Positions 47,474 through 60,923 of a stretch of 64,000 nt of DNA are shown one piece after another (the first letter of the stretch is position 1; each line of letters starts with the position of its first letter). Source of the DNA: Halanaerobiales bacterium (lineage in GTDB: Bacteria > Bacillota > Halanaerobiia > Halanaerobiales > Halanaerobiaceae). The notes beneath the pieces are model-generated. The model made no database searches and was not told the DNA's origin. It saw nothing but the letters and a program-made list of their open reading frames with translations. Location: the NCBI GenBank assembly GCA_016278485.1, contig JADQBT010000002.1, positions 291,601 through 355,600 of the forward strand, read 5' to 3'. Position numbers and translations under genes: made by a program.

Positions 47474-48010
47474 TTAAACCAGTTTTGCTCCATTATCAAG
47501 CGCTTGTTTATTTACTTCTAACAAATCATGGTTTCTTTTTGAAAGAACATCACTTAATGAGCTTTTTATTGTATCCATTTTTACAATACCAACTTTATTA
47601 ATGAGAGCTCCCAGCATCACCATATTTGCAACTCTACCTTCGCCAACCTCAAGTGCAATATCATTTGCATTAACTTCAATTACTTCTATATCATCTCTGG
47701 CAACATCTTCCTCAATTAAGGAAGTGTTTATAAATAACTTGCCACCTGGCTTAACTTTATCTAGAAACTTTAGCAAGGAAGGTAGATTCATAGCTACAAC
47801 AATATCAGCTTTTGATGTTAATGGTGAAGGTATTTCCTTATCAGATACAATCACTGTACAATTAGCAGTACCTCCCCGCATTTCAGGACCATAGGAAGGC
47901 ATCCAGGAAACATGACGGTCTTCCTTCATCCCAGCATAAGCAAGCAAACGGCCCATCAACATTACACCTTGACCACCAAAGCCTGCAAATATAATATCTT
48001 CTTTCACCAT
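47474..48010 (-). CDS. vorC: 2-oxoacid:ferredoxin oxidoreductase gamma subunit (VorC type)
   Basis: Catalytic-complex subunit of the branched-chain 2-oxoacid (or 2-oxoisovalerate) ferredoxin oxidoreductase. The 178 residues begin VKEDIIFAGFGGQGVMLMGR, then MPSYGPEMRGGTANCTVI, both hallmarks of the gamma (POR) domain. It follows vorA with touching stop and start codons and ends the operon before a strong terminator. Confidence 0.92.
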   Translation of the reverse strand: MVKEDIIFAGFGGQGVMLMGRLLAYAGMKEDRHVSWMPSYGPEMRGGTANCTVIVSDKEIPSPLTSKADIVVAMNLPSLLKFLDKVKPGGKLFINTSLIEEDVARDDIEVIEVNANDIALEVGEGRVANMVMLGALINKVGIVKMDTIKSSLSDVLSKRNHDLLEVNKQALDNGAKLV

Positions 48011-48756
48011 TATTCACCATCCTCTATATCTTTCAAAACACCTGGTTTATAGATCGGTATCATGTTTTCCTCTAACCATTTCATCGCTTCAATTGGTGTC
48101 ATACCCCAATTAGTAGGACAAGTTGAAAGTACTTCCACCATAGCAAAACCTTTACCTGCCAGTTGAATTTCAAATGCTTTTTTAATTGCCTTTTTGGCCT
48201 TAATGATATGTTTTGTATCATGCACAGAAACTCTTTCTAAATACGTTACTCCATCCAATACACTCAGCATTTCAGAAATTTTTAATGGTGAACCAGTTAA
48301 TTCTCTACTACGACCCGCAGGAGATGTCTTTGTTTTCTGATCAATCAAAGTAGTTGGAGCCATCTGGCCACCAGTCATACCATAGATTGCATTATTAACA
48401 AAAATAGTTGTTATATTTTCTCCTCTATTAGCCGCATGCACAATTTCAGCGGTTCCAATCGAAGCTAAGTCTCCATCACCTTGATAGGTAAAAACTACTT
48501 TATCAGGATGGACTCTTTTTACCCCGGTTGCCACTGCTGGTGCGCGTCCATGTGATGCTTCATGCATATCACAGTCAAAATATTCATATGCAAGCACTGA
48601 ACAACCTACAGGAGCAATACCGATAGTTTCTTCTCTAATCCCAAGTTCATCAATTACTTCTGCTGTTAGACGATGAATAATACCATGGGTACATCCAGGA
48701 CAATAATGAAATGGTTTATCAGTAAGTGCAGCTGGTTTTCCGGCTACTTCTTTCAT
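48010..48756 (-). CDS. vorA: 2-oxoacid:ferredoxin oxidoreductase beta subunit, TPP-binding (VorA type)
   Basis: Thiamine-pyrophosphate subunit. The 248 residues include [44 protein letters not shown] (Mg-TPP motif GDGD) and [16 protein letters not shown], typical of the KorB/VorA group. It overlaps vorB by four bases (ATGA). It receives 2-oxoacids made by the leucine dehydrogenase encoded upstream in the operon. Confidence 0.93.
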
Positions 48757-49817
48757 TCTTTAGCACCTCCGATAATTTTAATCTGTTCAAAAATCTCTTC
48801 CGGTGATGGAATCATTCCACCTGTACGCCCATAAAAATGAACTGGTTTTTTCCCGTTGACAGCAAGTCGTACATCTTCTATCATTTGACCAGTACTCATC
48901 TCAATAGTTAGAAAGTTAGCAACTTTATCGGCTGTCTGATTAATAATTTCTTCTGGAAATGGGAAGAGGGTAATTGGTCTAATTAATCCTACTTTATAGC
49001 CTACTTGCCTGGCCAGCTCAATTGCACTGGCTGCTATCCTTGCTGCTGTACCATAAGCAACAATTACAGTCTCAGCATCATCTAAACCTTTACTGGCAAA
49101 TCTAACTTCCTCTTCTTTCATTTGATCATATTTTGCTTTCAATTTTAAATTATGTTTCTCTAGTTCAGCAGGATCAAGCGCAAGTGAATTAATTATATTT
49201 TTTTCTCTTCCTTTAGCTCCATTAGTAGCCCAAGGTTTATCGGGAAGAGTTTCCGGATCAATTTCACGGGTAAACTCAACTGGTTCCATCATTTGACCGA
49301 TCATTCCATCTGCCAAAAGCATAACAGGATTACGATATTTATCAGCTAATGCAAAAGCATCAATTGTTAGATCAACAGCTTCCTGAACAGATGAAGGTGC
49401 TAGGACTAATAAGTGAAAATCACCATGTGCCATACCTTTAGTCGCTTGAAAATAATCAGACTGTGCCGGTTGGATTCCGCCTAAGCCAGGTCCACCTCGC
49501 ATCATATTGACAATAACTGCTGGTAATTCTGCTCCAGCTATATATGAAATACCTTCTGCTTTCAAACTGATGCCTGGACTTGAAGAAGAAGTTAAGACTC
49601 TTGCCCCAGCACCAGCAGCACCATAAACCATATTACTAGCCGCTACTTCACTTTCAGCCTGAAGAAATACTCCACCTACTTCTGGAAGACGCCAGGAAAG
49701 ATAGGCAGGTATTTCATTTTGAGGTGTAATCGGATAACCAAAGAAATAACGACAACCTGCTTTAACAGCAGCCTCAGCTATCGCTTCATTTCCTTTCATT
49801 AAAACTTTTTCACCCAT
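48753..49817 (-). CDS. vorB: 2-oxoacid:ferredoxin oxidoreductase alpha subunit (VorB type)
   Basis: Pyruvate:ferredoxin oxidoreductase domain I and II subunit. The 354 residues start [20 protein letters not shown] and contain [48 protein letters not shown] and [17 protein letters not shown]. These features point to VorB rather than pyruvate or 2-oxoglutarate enzymes, and the ptb-bcd-buk context supports branched-chain substrates. GGAGG precedes the ATG. Confidence 0.93.
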
Positions 49818-50094: not shown

Positions 50095-51165
50095 TTATTC
50101 ATATTCCAGACTCTTTTCTTCTTTTCTTAATACACGTAATGCGCCTGCTGCCAGTGCAGAAAGTTCTTCCTCACCTGGATAAATACTTACAGGAGCAATA
50201 AACGATACTCTTTTACTAATTGATGCTGTTAATTTATCTGAATAAGCCATTCCACCTGTTAAAATAACTGCATCAATATTACCATTAGCCGCTGCCGTTA
50301 ACGAACCAATCTCTTTGCTAATTTGATAAGCCATTGCTTTAAAGATAAGTTTGGCTTTTTTATCACCTGATTCAATTTGAGCTTCAACTTCTCTAAGATC
50401 TGTTGTGCCAAGATAGGCTAGTAAACCACCTTCGCCAACCAATTTTTTAATCAATTGATCTTTTGTATATTTTTCAGAATAAGCAAGTGCAACCACATCT
50501 TTAACAGGAACTGAGCCAGCTCTATTTGGTGAAAATGGACCATTACCACCCAGGGCGTCGTTAACATCAACAACCTGACCCTGCCGGTGAAGAGCAACAG
50601 ATATACCTCCACCAAGATGGGCAACAATCAAATTCAAATCTTGATACTCACAGCCAACTTTTTCCGCATATTTTCTGGCCACTGCTTTTTGATTTAAAGC
50701 ATGGAAAATACTCTTATGCTCAAGTTCAGGTAGCCCAGTAATTCGAACATGTGATGCAAGTTCATCAACTACAACAGGATCAACGATATAAGCTGGACAA
50801 TCTGCCTGATGAGCTATTTCATACGCAAGAATAGCCCCTAGATTACTTGCATGATTACCATATTTGCCTGATTTAAGGGTAGTTAACATTTTACCATTTA
50901 TAGCATAAGTTCCCCCAGTAATTGGTTTTAATAAACCGCCTCTTCCAACAACTGCAGAAAAATCATCCAATGAAAAACCTGCTTCTGTCAAAATGTTTAT
51001 AATATAATTATATCTCATCTGATCCTGGTCTACAACCTTATTGAAACGAGCCAGTTCTTCTCTTTGATGATCAATCGTTTTTATAAGCACCTGTTTATCA
51101 TCACAAAAAACACCTATTTTAGTTGATGTAGAACCCGGATTAATTGCAAGAATTAGTTTTTCCAT
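50095..51165 (-). CDS. buk: Butyrate kinase (branched-chain fatty acid kinase)
   Basis: ASKHA-fold acyl kinase that makes ATP from butyryl- or branched acyl-phosphate. The 356 residues show INPGSTSTKIGVF at the phosphate loop, VVGRGGLLKPITGGTY, LIVAHLGGGISVALH, NDALGGNGPFSPNRAGS and VILTGGMAYSD. With Ptb and VOR it gives substrate-level ATP from 2-oxoacids. ATG has AGGAG upstream; eleven bases separate it from bcd. Confidence 0.94.
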   Translation of the reverse strand: MEKLILAINPGSTSTKIGVFCDDKQVLIKTIDHQREELARFNKVVDQDQMRYNYIINILTEAGFSLDDFSAVVGRGGLLKPITGGTYAINGKMLTTLKSGKYGNHASNLGAILAYEIAHQADCPAYIVDPVVVDELASHVRITGLPELEHKSIFHALNQKAVARKYAEKVGCEYQDLNLIVAHLGGGISVALHRQGQVVDVNDALGGNGPFSPNRAGSVPVKDVVALAYSEKYTKDQLIKKLVGEGGLLAYLGTTDLREVEAQIESGDKKAKLIFKAMAYQISKEIGSLTAAANGNIDAVILTGGMAYSDKLTASISKRVSFIAPVSIYPGEEELSALAAGALRVLRKEEKSLEYE

Positions 51166-51176
51166 TTATAAACTCC

Positions 51177-52244
51177 TTAATTCCTCGGAATGTAATTTCT
51201 TCTTACTCTGGCGATTTTTTCTATTCTTTCTTCTGCCATAATATCAGCTGCTTGATAAGTTGAAATATTATCTCTTTTACTTATTTCAAATACTCTTTTA
51301 CAGTTATCAAATATCTTTTCTGCTTTAGCCATAGCCCGCTCTTTATTATAACCAAGTAATTCATCATAGACATTAATAACTCCACCTGCATTAATAACAT
51401 AATCAGGTGTATAGAGTATCCCTTTATCTTCTAACATGTCGCCATGACGTGGTTCAGCTAGAATATTATTTGCAGCTCCAGCAACTACATCACACTTTAA
51501 ACGATCAATTGTTTTATCATTGATTACTGCTCCAAGTGCACAAGGCGCAAATATATCACAATCTACGTCATAAATTTCATCAGGGGCAACAACTTTTACA
51601 TCCTCAATAGTTTCTGTTACATGATCAATATTTTCTTGTTTAATATCTGTTATTATTAATTTACCACCTTCATCTGCAATATGTTTAGCTAGATAATAAC
51701 CTACATGACCGACTCCTTGTAAAGCAACTACTTTACCATCTAAATCAGGAGAACCATAAAATTCTTCCGCAGCTGCTTTCATACCTCTCCAGACTCCAAA
51801 GGCAGTTACTGGAGACGGATCCCCAGAGGTACCAGGTAAACCTGTTACAAATTCAGTTTCTTCTGCTACAATCTTCATATCTTCAACACAGGTATTTACA
51901 TCTTCAGCAGTAATATATCTCCCATGTAAGCTCTGAATAAAACGACCATAAGCACGCATTAATTCTTCACTTTTTATTTTATCAGGATCTCCAATTATGA
52001 CAGCTTTCCCACCGCCAAGATTCAAGCCAGCTGCTGCTGATTTATAAGTCATACCTCTAGCCAGCCTTAAAACATCATTTAACGCTTCTTCTTCAGATTT
52101 ATAATTCCAAATTCTTGTTCCACCAAGCGCAGGACCTAACGTAGTATCATGAATACAAATAATTGCCTTCAAACCCGATTCTTGATCATGATTAAAAACC
52201 ACCTGTTCATAACCAAACTTTTCCATTCTTTCGAATAATTCCAT
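51177..52244 (-). CDS. bcd: Leucine/branched-chain amino acid dehydrogenase
   Basis: NAD-dependent oxidative deaminase of leucine, isoleucine and valine. The 355 residues contain [20 protein letters not shown], the catalytic lysine segment [14 protein letters not shown], the nucleotide fold [14 protein letters not shown] (about 178) and [10 protein letters not shown]. The length is typical of leucine rather than glutamate dehydrogenase (about 420). GAGGAGG precedes the ATG. It supplies the 2-oxoacids used by VorABCD. Confidence 0.93.
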
Positions 52245-52259
52245 TGATAATCCTCCTCT

Positions 52260-53174
52260 TTAATTTAAGATCTTTTGACCAGCTTCAAATAAAATACTTA
52301 AAGCCATTGAATTTACCTTAGTCTCCACACTATCAGAACGAGAACTAATAATTAAGGGGATAGAAGCACCCATAATAATACTTGCTGCTGGTTCTTTACC
52401 ATAAATAATCAAAGACTTATACAGCATATTTCCCGATTCTATATCAGGGACTACGAGAATATCAGCTTCTCCAGCTACTTGACTTTTAATTCTCTTATGC
52501 TCTGCCGCTTTTTTACTGACTGCATTATCAAAAGCAAGTGGACCATCAACTATTACTTCACCCAACTGGCCTCTCTGACTCATTTTAGAAATAATAGCTG
52601 CATCAGTAGTAGCTTTCATAGAACTATTAACTGTTTCTACAGCAGCCAAGATTGCCACTTTTGGTTGTTTAATACCCAACGCCTGGCCAAGAGTTACGGA
52701 ATTTTTTACGATCTGAACTTTTTCTTCTAAATTAGGAGCGATATTCATACCTGAATCTGTCAATATAATAAATCTCTTTTCGCGAGTAAGGTAGATTAGA
52801 GTTAACAGACTTAATAACCCTTCTTTTTTGAAAGAATACTTTTTGTCTAGCATAGCCTTCAAAATAGTACCCGTACTTAACATACCTTTCATGGGTAAAT
52901 CTGCTTCCTGATTAACAATCAATTCCATCGCCCGATGAGCAGCAGCCTGATTGTCTTGCGTAATTTCAATTCTTCCCTTGAAATCATAATCAACTTTTTT
53001 AAGAGCACCATCTATTTTCCTCTTATCACCGATCAAAATAGGCTCAATTAAATCAATTTCACTCGCCTTTTTGATACTCTTTAAGACTGTTGCATCACCT
53101 GCTGCAGCAACGCATATTCTCTTCTTTTCTTTTTTTAGAGCTGCTTTTACAAGACTATCCATATCTTTAAACAT
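52260..53174 (-). CDS. ptb: Phosphate butyryltransferase
   Basis: Converts butyryl- or branched acyl-CoA to the acyl phosphate. The 304 residues have KRICVAAAGDATVLKSIKKA, DLPMKGMLSTGTILKAML, LTDSGMNIAPNLEEKVQIV, DGPLAFDNAVS and ILVVPDIESGNMLYK, all typical of the Ptb/Pta family. First gene of the seven-gene operon, with its ATG at 53174 about 27 bases downstream of the predicted sigma-54 transcription start. Confidence 0.94.
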   Translation of the reverse strand: MFKDMDSLVKAALKKEKKRICVAAAGDATVLKSIKKASEIDLIEPILIGDKRKIDGALKKVDYDFKGRIEITQDNQAAAHRAMELIVNQEADLPMKGMLSTGTILKAMLDKKYSFKKEGLLSLLTLIYLTREKRFIILTDSGMNIAPNLEEKVQIVKNSVTLGQALGIKQPKVAILAAVETVNSSMKATTDAAIISKMSQRGQLGEVIVDGPLAFDNAVSKKAAEHKRIKSQVAGEADILVVPDIESGNMLYKSLIIYGKEPAASIIMGASIPLIISSRSDSVETKVNSMALSILFEAGQKILN

Positions 53175-53212: not shown

Positions 53213-53229
53213 TGCAATAATTATGCCAA
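53213..53229 (-). promoter_or_regulatory. Sigma-54 (RpoN/SigL) promoter of the ptb operon
   Basis: The minus strand reads TTGGCATAATTATTGCA. It has the invariant GG (-24) and GC (-12) separated by ten bases and TGGCAT-N5-TTGCA matching TGGCAC-N5-TTGCA with one change. A sigma-54 activator is encoded immediately upstream. Confidence 0.9.
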
Positions 53230-53303
53230 GTTATTGAATTGTGCAAAAATTATCATAACTGATATAACAGTAATCTATTTAACACTTAAATAATAATAAA
53301 TAA

Positions 53304-53363
53304 TAAATACTGCAAAATAAAGCGCGCCTGCAAAAAATTGCAGGAAAAAAATTGCAGTATTTA
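53304..53363. repeat. 60-bp nested palindrome between the sigma-54 activator gene and ptb
   Basis: Outer arms TAAATACTGCAA (53304-53315) and TTGCAGTATTTA (53352-53363) are perfect 12-base inverted repeats. They enclose a second perfect palindrome, CCTGCAA-AAAA-TTGCAGG (53327-53344). All four arms contain TGCAA/TTGCA. It lies 75-150 bases upstream of the sigma-54 promoter, the normal range of an enhancer, and just past the activator stop codon, so a role as terminator is also possible. Confidence 0.9.
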
Positions 53364-55079
53364 TCACAGACCATACTTTTTTAATTTGTAATATAGACTT
53401 CTGACAGCTATGCCTAGCATTTTTGCTGCTTCAGTCCGATTACCATCCGTTTTTTCCAAAGCATTTAAAATCGCTTCTTGCTCAGTTTTAGCAACAGTTT
53501 CAGCAAGAGTCATCTCCATATTTGCTCTTAATTTTTCTTGCTGATTACTTAGATCCAAATTATTATCATTTTTTAAATTTGGCAAATGATTTATAGTAAT
53601 GATTGACTCATCAATGCCAAGATAGATCATTGCTCTACCTATTACGTTTTCCAGTTCTCGCACATTTCCAGGCCAATCATAGTCAATTAATAAATTTAAT
53701 CCCTCTGGCGAAATACCAGTAACAGAACGTCCATATTCCTGATTTAATTTTCTAATAATATGATCAACTAAAAGGGAAATATCTTCTTTTCTATTTCTAA
53801 GTGGCGGTATATTTAAAGGAAAAACATTAAGTCTATAATAAAGGTCTTCCCGAAAATCACCCTGTTGAATTGCCTTTTCAAGATCTGTATTAGAAGCAAC
53901 TATAATTCTAACATCAATATCAATAGTTCTAGAACCACCTACACGCATAATCTCTCTTTCTTGAAGAACCCTTAATAATTTAGGTTGTAGACTAAGACTT
54001 ATTTTACCAATTTCATCTAAAAAGATAGTCCCTCCCTCTGCTTCTTCAAAAAGACCTTTTTTCCCTTCTTTTTTAGCTCCTGTAAATGCTCCTTCAACAT
54101 AACCAAACAGTTCACTTTCAATTAAATTATCTGATAAAGCTGCACAATTGACTCTAATAAATTTTTGCCCACTCCTGTCACTTTCATTATGAATAGCATG
54201 AGCAAATAGTTCCTTACCTGTCCCACTTTCTCCTCTTAGCAAAACTGTAACTGGTGTATGTGATGCTCTTCGTGCAAGTCCAGTAATATTTTTTATAGAC
54301 TTACTTTTACCAACAATATCATTAAAATTGTATTTTGCATCAATATGCCGGATTATTCTTTTAACCTGGTCCAATTCTTCTGTGAGTTTTTTTATCTCAG
54401 AAACATCTTTTATGACACCAACACTACCTTTTAAATTTCCATTAACTAAGATTGGAGCAACATCAACAATAACATCTTTTTTCTTGGGACCCACTCTCAT
54501 TCTTACATTGTGAACAGGTTCTTGTGTTTTGATTACTTGATAATGCATGCTTCTTCCTTCGGCTATATCTACAGTAGCAGGTTTTCCTAAAACATCTTTT
54601 TCCGTTAATCCGGTTAAACGTGTATAAGCTGGATTAATTAATAAACCTCTTCCATTTTCATCTACCACGGAAATTGCATCCTGGGTTGAATTAATAATTG
54701 CTTCTAAAAGAGCTTGCATCTCTTTTAAATTTATTACTTCTTTCGCAAAATTTTTAACTTCTTCTATATCTCTAAAAACAGCTACTGCCCCAATAACTTT
54801 ACCAGCATCATTTCTGACCGGCATTCGATTTGTAATAATTGTTTTATCGCCAAGGTATTGGGTCTGATTTAATTCCATTTGGCCTGTATTCATCACAATA
54901 TGCAATCTAGTATTTGGAATTACTTCTCTCACTTCACGGCCGATTACATTTTCTTTTTTGCGATTTAGTATTTTTTCAGCTGCCTTATTAAATAACTCAA
55001 CTTGCCCAGCTCGATCAATAGACAAAATACCGTCATGTGTAGCATCTAAGATTACATCTTTTTTTTGGTAGTTATCCAT
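53364..55079 (-). CDS. Sigma-54-dependent activator with two PAS domains (BkdR/RocR-like)
   Basis: Enhancer-binding protein that opens sigma-54 promoters. The 571 residues have two PAS domains (about 1-115 and 125-235), a AAA+ domain with GESGTGKELFAHAIH, the sigma-54 contact GAFTGAKKEG, GGTIFLDEIG and RLNVFPLNIPPLRNR, and a Fis-type helix-turn-helix (NRTEAAKMLGIAVRSLYYKL). There is no receiver domain, so it probably senses a small molecule. ATG 55079 fits AAGGGAG better than TTG 55082. It lies between arcA and the sigma-54 promoter of ptb, the best candidate target. Naming it BkdR is by position. Confidence 0.9.
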   Translation of the reverse strand: MDNYQKKDVILDATHDGILSIDRAGQVELFNKAAEKILNRKKENVIGREVREVIPNTRLHIVMNTGQMELNQTQYLGDKTIITNRMPVRNDAGKVIGAVAVFRDIEEVKNFAKEVINLKEMQALLEAIINSTQDAISVVDENGRGLLINPAYTRLTGLTEKDVLGKPATVDIAEGRSMHYQVIKTQEPVHNVRMRVGPKKKDVIVDVAPILVNGNLKGSVGVIKDVSEIKKLTEELDQVKRIIRHIDAKYNFNDIVGKSKSIKNITGLARRASHTPVTVLLRGESGTGKELFAHAIHNESDRSGQKFIRVNCAALSDNLIESELFGYVEGAFTGAKKEGKKGLFEEAEGGTIFLDEIGKISLSLQPKLLRVLQEREIMRVGGSRTIDIDVRIIVASNTDLEKAIQQGDFREDLYYRLNVFPLNIPPLRNRKEDISLLVDHIIRKLNQEYGRSVTGISPEGLNLLIDYDWPGNVRELENVIGRAMIYLGIDESIITINHLPNLKNDNNLDLSNQQEKLRANMEMTLAETVAKTEQEAILNALEKTDGNRTEAAKMLGIAVRSLYYKLKKYGL

Positions 55080-55094
55080 CAATTAACTCCCTTC

Positions 55095-56315
55095 TTATTC
55101 TCTATATAACGGCATACTCATACAACGTGGTCCTCCCCGTCCTCTTGAAAGTTCTGAACTTGATATTTTATGAGTTTTGACTCCTTTTTCTTGCAATAAT
55201 TGATTTGTAACATAATTGCGAGAATATACGACAACCTCACCAGGAGCAATAGCAAGAGTGTTAGAACCGTCATTCCATTGTTCTCGTCCTGCATCAATTA
55301 GATCTCCACCAGCACATCTAATTAAATGAACTTTATCTATTGAAAGATATTTTTTTAAAATATTTTTCAGAGTATCTTTCTCTTCTCGAATTTTTAGATT
55401 GTCAGAAGATCCAGCAGTAATAGAAAAAACACGCAGAGGGTCTTCAATAGCAGCATGTATTGTGAACTTATCATAGTCAACCATCGTAAAGACAGTATCA
55501 AGATGCATAAAAGCCCTTTTTTTTGGAATATTAAAGGCAAGTATTGTTGTAAATGTCTGATCACCGAAAAGTATATTTTTGGCAACTTTTTCAACTGCTT
55601 CTGCCCGAGTCCGTTGAGAAATTCCTATTGCTAATACTTCATTATTTAATACTAAAATATCTCCACCTTCAATAAAAGCTTTTTCATAGCGATTATAAAA
55701 GTGAGGAATATCTGCCTCAACAAAATCTGGATGGTAACGAAATATATATTCAGAGAATATTGTTTCTCTATTTCTAGTTGGAGCAAACATTTTATTTAAA
55801 GTAATACCATTTCCAATTGATGCAAAAGGATCTCTTGTAAAATATAGATTTGGCATCGGTTCTAAAATAAAGGGATAATTTCGATAAGCCATATCTCCTA
55901 AGGACTTTTCACCTAACTGATCTAAATCTGATTTTTTTAATCCTTCCATAGTTATCTTGACTAATTCTTTTTTATCCAAACCAGCAAAATAATTTTTAAT
56001 ATGATAAATTTTCGTTTCACTTCTAATTCCAGCTTCTGCAAGAAATTGATCAATAAATTTTTCTCTGATTTCTGGATTAACAATAGTTTCTGCCAGCAGA
56101 TCTTCTAAATATAATACTTCTGCTCCATTCTGTTTTAAAACGTTAGCAAACTCGTCATGTTCCTGCTGTGCTATTTCTAAAAAAGGTATGTCATCAAATA
56201 AAAGCCTTGCCATCAGATCAGGTGTCAATCTTTCTATCTCTTTGCCAGGCCTATGTAATAAAACTTTTTTTAAGCGAGCAATCTCAGAACTAATATTAAT
56301 CATATTTTCTGTCAT
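55095..56315 (-). CDS. arcA: Arginine deiminase
   Basis: Hydrolyses arginine to citrulline and ammonia. The 406 residues contain [57 protein letters not shown] (catalytic His) and the terminal [15 protein letters not shown] with the nucleophilic cysteine. The usual partners arcB, arcC and arcD are not in the window. Instead the sigma-54 activator gene follows after fifteen bases. ATG has AGGAG upstream. A TGCAA-N4-TTGCA palindrome lies between promoter and start. Confidence 0.96.
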
Positions 56316-56335: not shown

Positions 56336-56349
56336 TGCAATTTTTTGCA
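56336..56349. promoter_or_regulatory. Operator-like palindrome TGCAA-N4-TTGCA before arcA
   Basis: A perfect 14-bp palindrome with a T/A spacer, placed 20 bases before the arcA start and just downstream of the predicted transcription start. The same core is the centre of the nested palindrome at 53327-53344. The 5-4-5 layout resembles ARG boxes (TGAAT-N4-ATTCA), and argR is in the window. Confidence 0.6.
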
Positions 56350-56358
56350 GTCAAATTT

Positions 56359-56387
56359 ATTATATAATATTTTAACTAAATTATAAA
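56359..56387 (-). promoter_or_regulatory. Possible sigma-A promoter of arcA
   Basis: TTTATA (56382-56387), 17 bases and TATAAT (56359-56364) on the minus strand. The -10 is perfect, the -35 weak, which would suit a regulated promoter. Confidence 0.55.
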
Positions 56388-60470: not shown

Positions 60471-60923
60471 CTAATTAAAAAGGTCTTCTAACTTTTTAAA
60501 AACCACATCAGTTTTATCTATTGGCTTGGTAATAATCATAATAGTATCATCACCAGCAATCGTTCCCATTACATAACTCCAGTTTGCATTATCTAGTGCC
60601 GCACCTAAACCTCCAGCTGTACCAGGCACAGTTTTTATTAAAATTAAATTTTCACTATAATCAAGATCAATTACAAAATCCTGTACCATCTTTTTTAACC
60701 AATCATTTAAATCAGCATCTCGTCTTTTGGATGGCAAAGAATATTTATAACCTCCCTTACCATCAGGAATTTTAATTAATCCTAATTTTTTTATATCTCG
60801 GGAAACAGTCGCTTGTGTAACATCTATTCCTGCTTCTTCTAATGCAGCAACTAATTCTTCTTGAGTGCCTATATTATTATTTTTAATTAATTTAATGATC
60901 TCAAGATGTCTCTTATTTTTCAA
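60471..60923 (-). CDS. argR: Arginine repressor ArgR/AhrC
   Basis: Hexameric arginine-responsive regulator. The 150 residues have an N-terminal winged helix (IGTQEELVAALEEAGIDVTQ, ATVSRDIKKLGLIK) and a C-terminal oligomerisation and arginine-binding domain with TVPGTAGGLGAALDNANW and GTIAGDDTIMII, which holds the two acidic ligand residues. The start is a TTG at 60923 seven bases after GGAGG. Candidate ARG-box-like sites occur before arcA and near ptb. Confidence 0.96.
   Translation of the reverse strand: MKNKRHLEIIKLIKNNNIGTQEELVAALEEAGIDVTQATVSRDIKKLGLIKIPDGKGGYKYSLPSKRRDADLNDWLKKMVQDFVIDLDYSENLILIKTVPGTAGGLGAALDNANWSYVMGTIAGDDTIMIITKPIDKTDVVFKKLEDLFN

Follow-up and report, generated by a model that had tools for sequence, protein, structure and literature searches.

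The window, the whole 64-kb (64,000-nt) stretch of DNA that was analysed, carries on its minus strand an arginine deiminase gene, a sigma-54 activator gene and a set of catabolic genes headed by ptb, with a nested palindrome in the gap between the activator gene and ptb. The features are listed below by coordinate.

47474..49817, minus strand: three 2-oxoacid:ferredoxin oxidoreductase subunit genes, assigned from translations and conserved order
50095..51165, minus strand: buk, butyrate kinase, in the target operon
51177..52244, minus strand: leucine dehydrogenase-like gene (leuDH), in the target operon
52260..53174, minus strand: ptb, phosphate butyryltransferase family, first gene of the target operon
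53213..53229, minus strand: sigma-54 (-24/-12) promoter of ptb, TTGGCATAATTATTGCA, a consensus match with correct GG-to-GC spacing
53303..53364, minus strand: the whole block (nested palindrome), putative upstream activating sequence (UAS) of the ptb operon
53364..55082, minus strand: bkdR orthologue, with two PAS domains, a sigma-54 activation domain and a Fis-type HTH
55095..56315, minus strand: arcA, arginine deiminase, 12 nt upstream of bkdR
56336..56349, minus strand: putative second BkdR box, TGCAAAAAATTGCA, 9 nt past the -10 (TATAAT) of the arcA-bkdR promoter
56359..56387, minus strand: sigma-A-like promoter of arcA-bkdR, TTTATA-N17-TATAAT, recognised by consensus alone, with 2 such matches present where chance predicts 2.5

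BkdR is a switch protein that turns on genes for branched-chain amino acid breakdown. The best relatives of the activator in the window (53–70% identity) come from Halanaerobiales, Bacillaceae, Brevibacillus, Aneurinibacillus and some clostridia, and include those of the B. subtilis group. In most relatives checked, bkdR lies upstream of ptb, leuDH and buk, followed in Halanaerobiales by 2-oxoacid:ferredoxin oxidoreductase genes, so that the order bkdR-ptb-leuDH-buk-vor is conserved. Identity with BkdR relatives and conserved gene order together mark the neighbouring PAS activator as a BkdR orthologue. The oxidoreductase is likely of the branched-chain type and its genes probably belong to the same operon as ptb, while arcA and bkdR likely form one operon of their own. 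The genome also contains rpoN, the sigma-54 gene.

Two further observations concern the locus in relatives. The gap between bkdR and ptb measures ~1.3–2.5 kb in most other Halanaerobiales (L174, L176–L178, L181–L188) and could hold an additional gene, which would then be this enhancer's first target. The BkdR open frame is ~690 aa long in many Bacillaceae and their relatives (L049–L116) versus 572 aa in the window, with the extra ~120 aa at the N terminus.

Read along the minus strand, the end of the activator gene is followed by the block, ~75 bp of AT-rich DNA, TTGGCATAATTATTGCA and ptb (ATG at 53174). The initial annotation, made from the letters of this DNA, had described a nested palindrome that starts at the activator stop codon and stands upstream of a clear sigma-54 promoter. 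Both placements were recovered: the stop codon (TGA, 53366–53364, minus strand) is where the block starts, and the block lies ~75–135 bp upstream of the sigma-54 element, with its centre ~109 bp upstream. The perfect inner palindrome, CCTGCAA and TTGCAGG around AAAA, was likewise found as described (CCTGCAAAAAATTGCAGG, 53327–53344). The outer arms had been given as perfect and 12 bases long; they are 100% complementary, but each is 13 nt, one base longer (ATAAATACTGCAA at 53303–53315 and TTGCAGTATTTAT at 53352–53364). Within them sits the core box TGCAAAAAATTGCA (53329–53342). Because the centre of the inner palindrome (53335.5) is 2 bp away from that of the outer arms (53333.5), the two palindromes are nested but not concentric.

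We compared 103 orthologous BkdR loci, counting the window as one and removing identical copies, over a stretch that opens 15 bp ahead of the bkdR stop and runs to 250 bp beyond it; expected numbers came from simple Markov shuffles and promoters were called by consensus match. The exact box TGCAAN4TTGCA is present downstream of bkdR in 50 of the 103 loci versus 0.36 expected, and a box with at most one mismatch in 93 versus 4.3 expected, counts drawn from phylogenetically related loci rather than from independent trials. In a few relatives (e.g., L026, L030, L066, L106) the search turned up no good site. Shifting the scan along the locus returned almost no boxes within genes and a single further peak, upstream of bkdR. 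Where a -24/-12 element was recognisable (the pattern missed it in a sizeable minority of loci), the best site lies 47–217 bp upstream of the -24 element, with a median of 70.5. Across Bacillota the box goes together with bkdR, also at loci where arcA does not adjoin it. The initial annotation had proposed an enhancer of the adjacent PAS activator and had suggested aligning the same intergenic region in relatives; that comparison bears the proposal out, as orthologous loci repeat the motif, its location between the activator and the sigma-54 promoter, the TGCAA half sites and their spacing.

Spacing between sites is also regular. With up to two mismatches allowed per site, pairs 14 bp apart occur in 54 of the 103 related loci (0.1 expected), pairs 17, 18 and 19 bp apart in 9, 16 and 31 loci, respectively, and pairs 33 bp apart in 19 loci (0–0.1 expected for each of these distances). 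These fixed spacings identify the predicted BkdR UAS as a three-site array, in which site 1 abuts site 2 and site 3 stands four to five bp beyond. The putative sites in the window are the following.

53343..53356, minus strand: UAS site 1, TGCAATTTTTTTCC, distal half TGCAA intact, 2 mismatches, 14 bp from site 2; holds the right-hand outer arm
53329..53342, minus strand: UAS site 2 (central), TGCAATTTTTTGCA, a perfect match to the BkdR box
53311..53324, minus strand: UAS site 3, CGCTTTATTTTGCA, intact only in its distal half TTGCA, with 3 mismatches, and placed 18 bp from site 2; holds the left-hand outer arm

The distance to the right-hand half site is unchanged in L009, L010, L016, L020, L022 and L023, and that to the left-hand one in L016, L020, L022 and L023. 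Judged from relatives, sites 1 and 3 appear to have lost their inner halves in this genome, and what had been described as the outer arms would be the outer halves of these two sites plus seven AT-rich bases (ATAAATA), which are not conserved and may be due to chance. The proposed arrangement of one full site flanked by two half sites thus describes this genome, and relatives display the three-site array.

The place of the box is also specific within the genome. Only six exact copies of TGCAAN4TTGCA occur: two flank arcA-bkdR, three lie within genes and one is next to a tRNA cluster. Of the seven promoters that match the sigma-54 consensus strictly, that of ptb alone has a box no more than 350 bp away. 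A wider BkdR regulon was considered and rejected on these counts, the remaining exact boxes lying inside genes or by the tRNA cluster and the other strict promoters having no box. The recognition helix of the window's activator reads GIAVRSLYYKL, and the pattern [AS][VIL]R-x-[LF]YYK is nearly invariant among BkdR orthologues; two paralogues at 42–43% identity carry HRTSLYNK or HRTSLYQK and are without the box. Conservation, place, genome-wide specificity and the recognition helix set against those of the paralogues, taken together, make the neighbouring BkdR by far the likeliest predicted binder.

From these observations of sequence, conservation, geometry and specificity of place, we infer that the block is very probably the UAS (enhancer) of the sigma-54-dependent ptb operon, bound by the adjacent BkdR. 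BkdR dimers would recognise TGCAAN4TTGCA through the C-terminal Fis-type HTH, and up to three could line up next to each other at spacings of 14 and 18–19 bp. The nested-palindrome look of this copy would arise because its middle site is perfect and its outer two retain only their outer half sites. The assembled activator would then loop to RNA polymerase-sigma-54 ~110 bp downstream and use ATP to open the ptb promoter, probably when branched-chain amino acids are available.

The palindrome could also act as RNA. A secondary role as terminator of the activator gene had been suggested in the initial annotation, and it is compatible with an enhancer: the same DNA would serve BkdR and end the bkdR transcript. 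Relatives lend this some weight, since a looser scan places site 2 within a hairpin of 9–15 bp followed by U-rich sequence in eight Halanaerobiales (L009, L010, L011, L016, L019, L020, L022, L023), with clear overlap of box and terminator-like hairpin in L009, L010, L016, L020, L022 and L023; a stricter scan confirmed L009 and did not report L016, and the hairpins of three relatives were examined by RNA folding. In these Halanaerobiales the enhancer site may double as a candidate bkdR terminator. The window copy, however, has neither the extended stem nor the adjacent U run: after its 7-bp stem (-9.9 kcal/mol) comes CGCGC, ahead of any run of U, where an intrinsic terminator has a G+C-rich hairpin leading directly into one, and the terminator scan reports none. 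The dual role is thus plausible in several relatives and rather unlikely in this genome.

That the block is mainly an intrinsic terminator of bkdR is far less probable still. Its start at the bkdR stop codon would fit, and the RNA of the region folds better than 200 of 200 shuffles (z -4.7), but such folding is expected of any palindrome. Relatives outside Halanaerobiales carry the DNA motif without a terminator-like hairpin at that place, and it is the half sites and the distances between them that are conserved, rather than the complementarity of a stem. A search of the block against Rfam, which would have pointed to a known RNA element, gave no match.

ArgR had been named as another possible binder, with the block as an ARG box controlling arcA-bkdR or ptb. 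An argR-like gene lies nearby (60471–60923), arcA is an arginine gene, and the ARG box, too, is an AT-centred palindrome of similar size with TG...CA ends. Yet argC operators of the same order read TGWATN4ATWCA, differing in the half-site letters at positions 3 and 5, and TGCAAAAAATTGCA misses 4 of the 10 positions. In four of the five argC loci that yielded ARG boxes, the boxes are paired at a distance of 20 bp. TGCAAN4TTGCA stands upstream of no argC examined, and in the window's genome no argC passes the family cut-off. The block therefore does not fit the ARG boxes derived from the argC genes of relatives, and the box follows bkdR across Bacillota even without arcA beside it; an ArgR operator is highly improbable.

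A chance palindrome in AT-rich intergenic DNA can be dismissed: the 13-nt perfect arms (gap up to 45) are by themselves unremarkable for a 64-kb AT-rich window (1 observed vs 0.2 expected in first-order Markov shuffles), but arms and inner palindrome combined occurred in 0 of 40 shuffled windows, and the conservation of motif and spacing in relatives, stronger evidence than the shuffles that the block is real, already refutes it.

As a BkdR UAS, the block is a known kind of element and the expected regulatory element of a known system; what is new is a well-resolved instance, mapped with a clear recognition sequence. Upstream activating sequences were reportedly shown by deletion to be needed for the B. 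subtilis bkd operon (Debarbouille and colleagues, in 1999). The B. subtilis target operon continues with the bkd dehydrogenase complex, in place of which the window has a ferredoxin-linked 2-oxoacid oxidoreductase. Further differences are the position of bkdR behind arcA, the reduction of the outer sites to half sites and a box-to-promoter distance ~40 bp greater than in the B. subtilis group. Shared with B. subtilis and B. thuringiensis are the orthologous activator, the place between bkdR and ptb, the sigma-54 promoter and the ptb-leuDH-buk operon, and B. subtilis-group loci (e.g., L081, L075, L097) have boxes of the same sequence. The orthologous promoter of B. thuringiensis needs BkdR and sigma-54 (PMC4428206), and bkd gene expression falls in an rpoN mutant of B. 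cereus (PMC4524646). According to the available portion of a survey of Clostridiales, sigma-54 activators there also have a Fis-type HTH and bind inverted-repeat UAS, often at several sites and mostly 100–250 bp upstream of -24/-12 promoters; fifteen of its groups have a TGT-N10-12-ACA motif, unlike TGCAAN4TTGCA, and that portion contains no group named BkdR or controlling ptb (PMC6615313). We found no published BkdR consensus in the literature searched, and one may still exist. For Bacilli, Halanaerobiales and some other clostridia, the present data offer a testable BkdR recognition sequence together with the geometry of its sites.

The copy of the box upstream of arcA (56336–56349) was absent from the earlier description of this DNA. 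In 34 other loci, nearly all from Bacillaceae, the promoter of bkdR itself is followed by a box that begins exactly 7 nt past its -10. Since protein on the second box would cover the transcription start, this placement suggests autorepression, and we predict that bkdR is under negative autoregulation; the box over the arcA-bkdR transcript start would probably let BkdR limit its own synthesis. Among other Halanaerobiales, no box with at most one mismatch was found upstream of bkdR, and none was found at their arcA genes (L150 left out).

A broader picture can be drawn, tentatively, in which three things hold jointly. BkdR enhancers across Bacillota would form a fixed three-site array (14 + 18–19 bp), able perhaps to accommodate the three dimers that make up one activator hexamer; the same box, in a constant position over the bkdR start, would repress bkdR; and in several Halanaerobiales the central site would have merged with the terminator of the activator gene, making one stretch both DNA enhancer and RNA terminator. 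The last element suggests that a single set of bases can serve enhancer and terminator alike.

A separate feature was noticed in the arcA leaders of six other Halanaerobiales (L149, L154, L155, L157, L158, L159), which have in common a TTAACTAC...GGTTGTTA-like sequence immediately downstream of a sigma-A-like promoter. It was not seen upstream of arcA in the window, and five of the leaders searched against Rfam gave no match; the shared sequence could be an operator or an RNA element.
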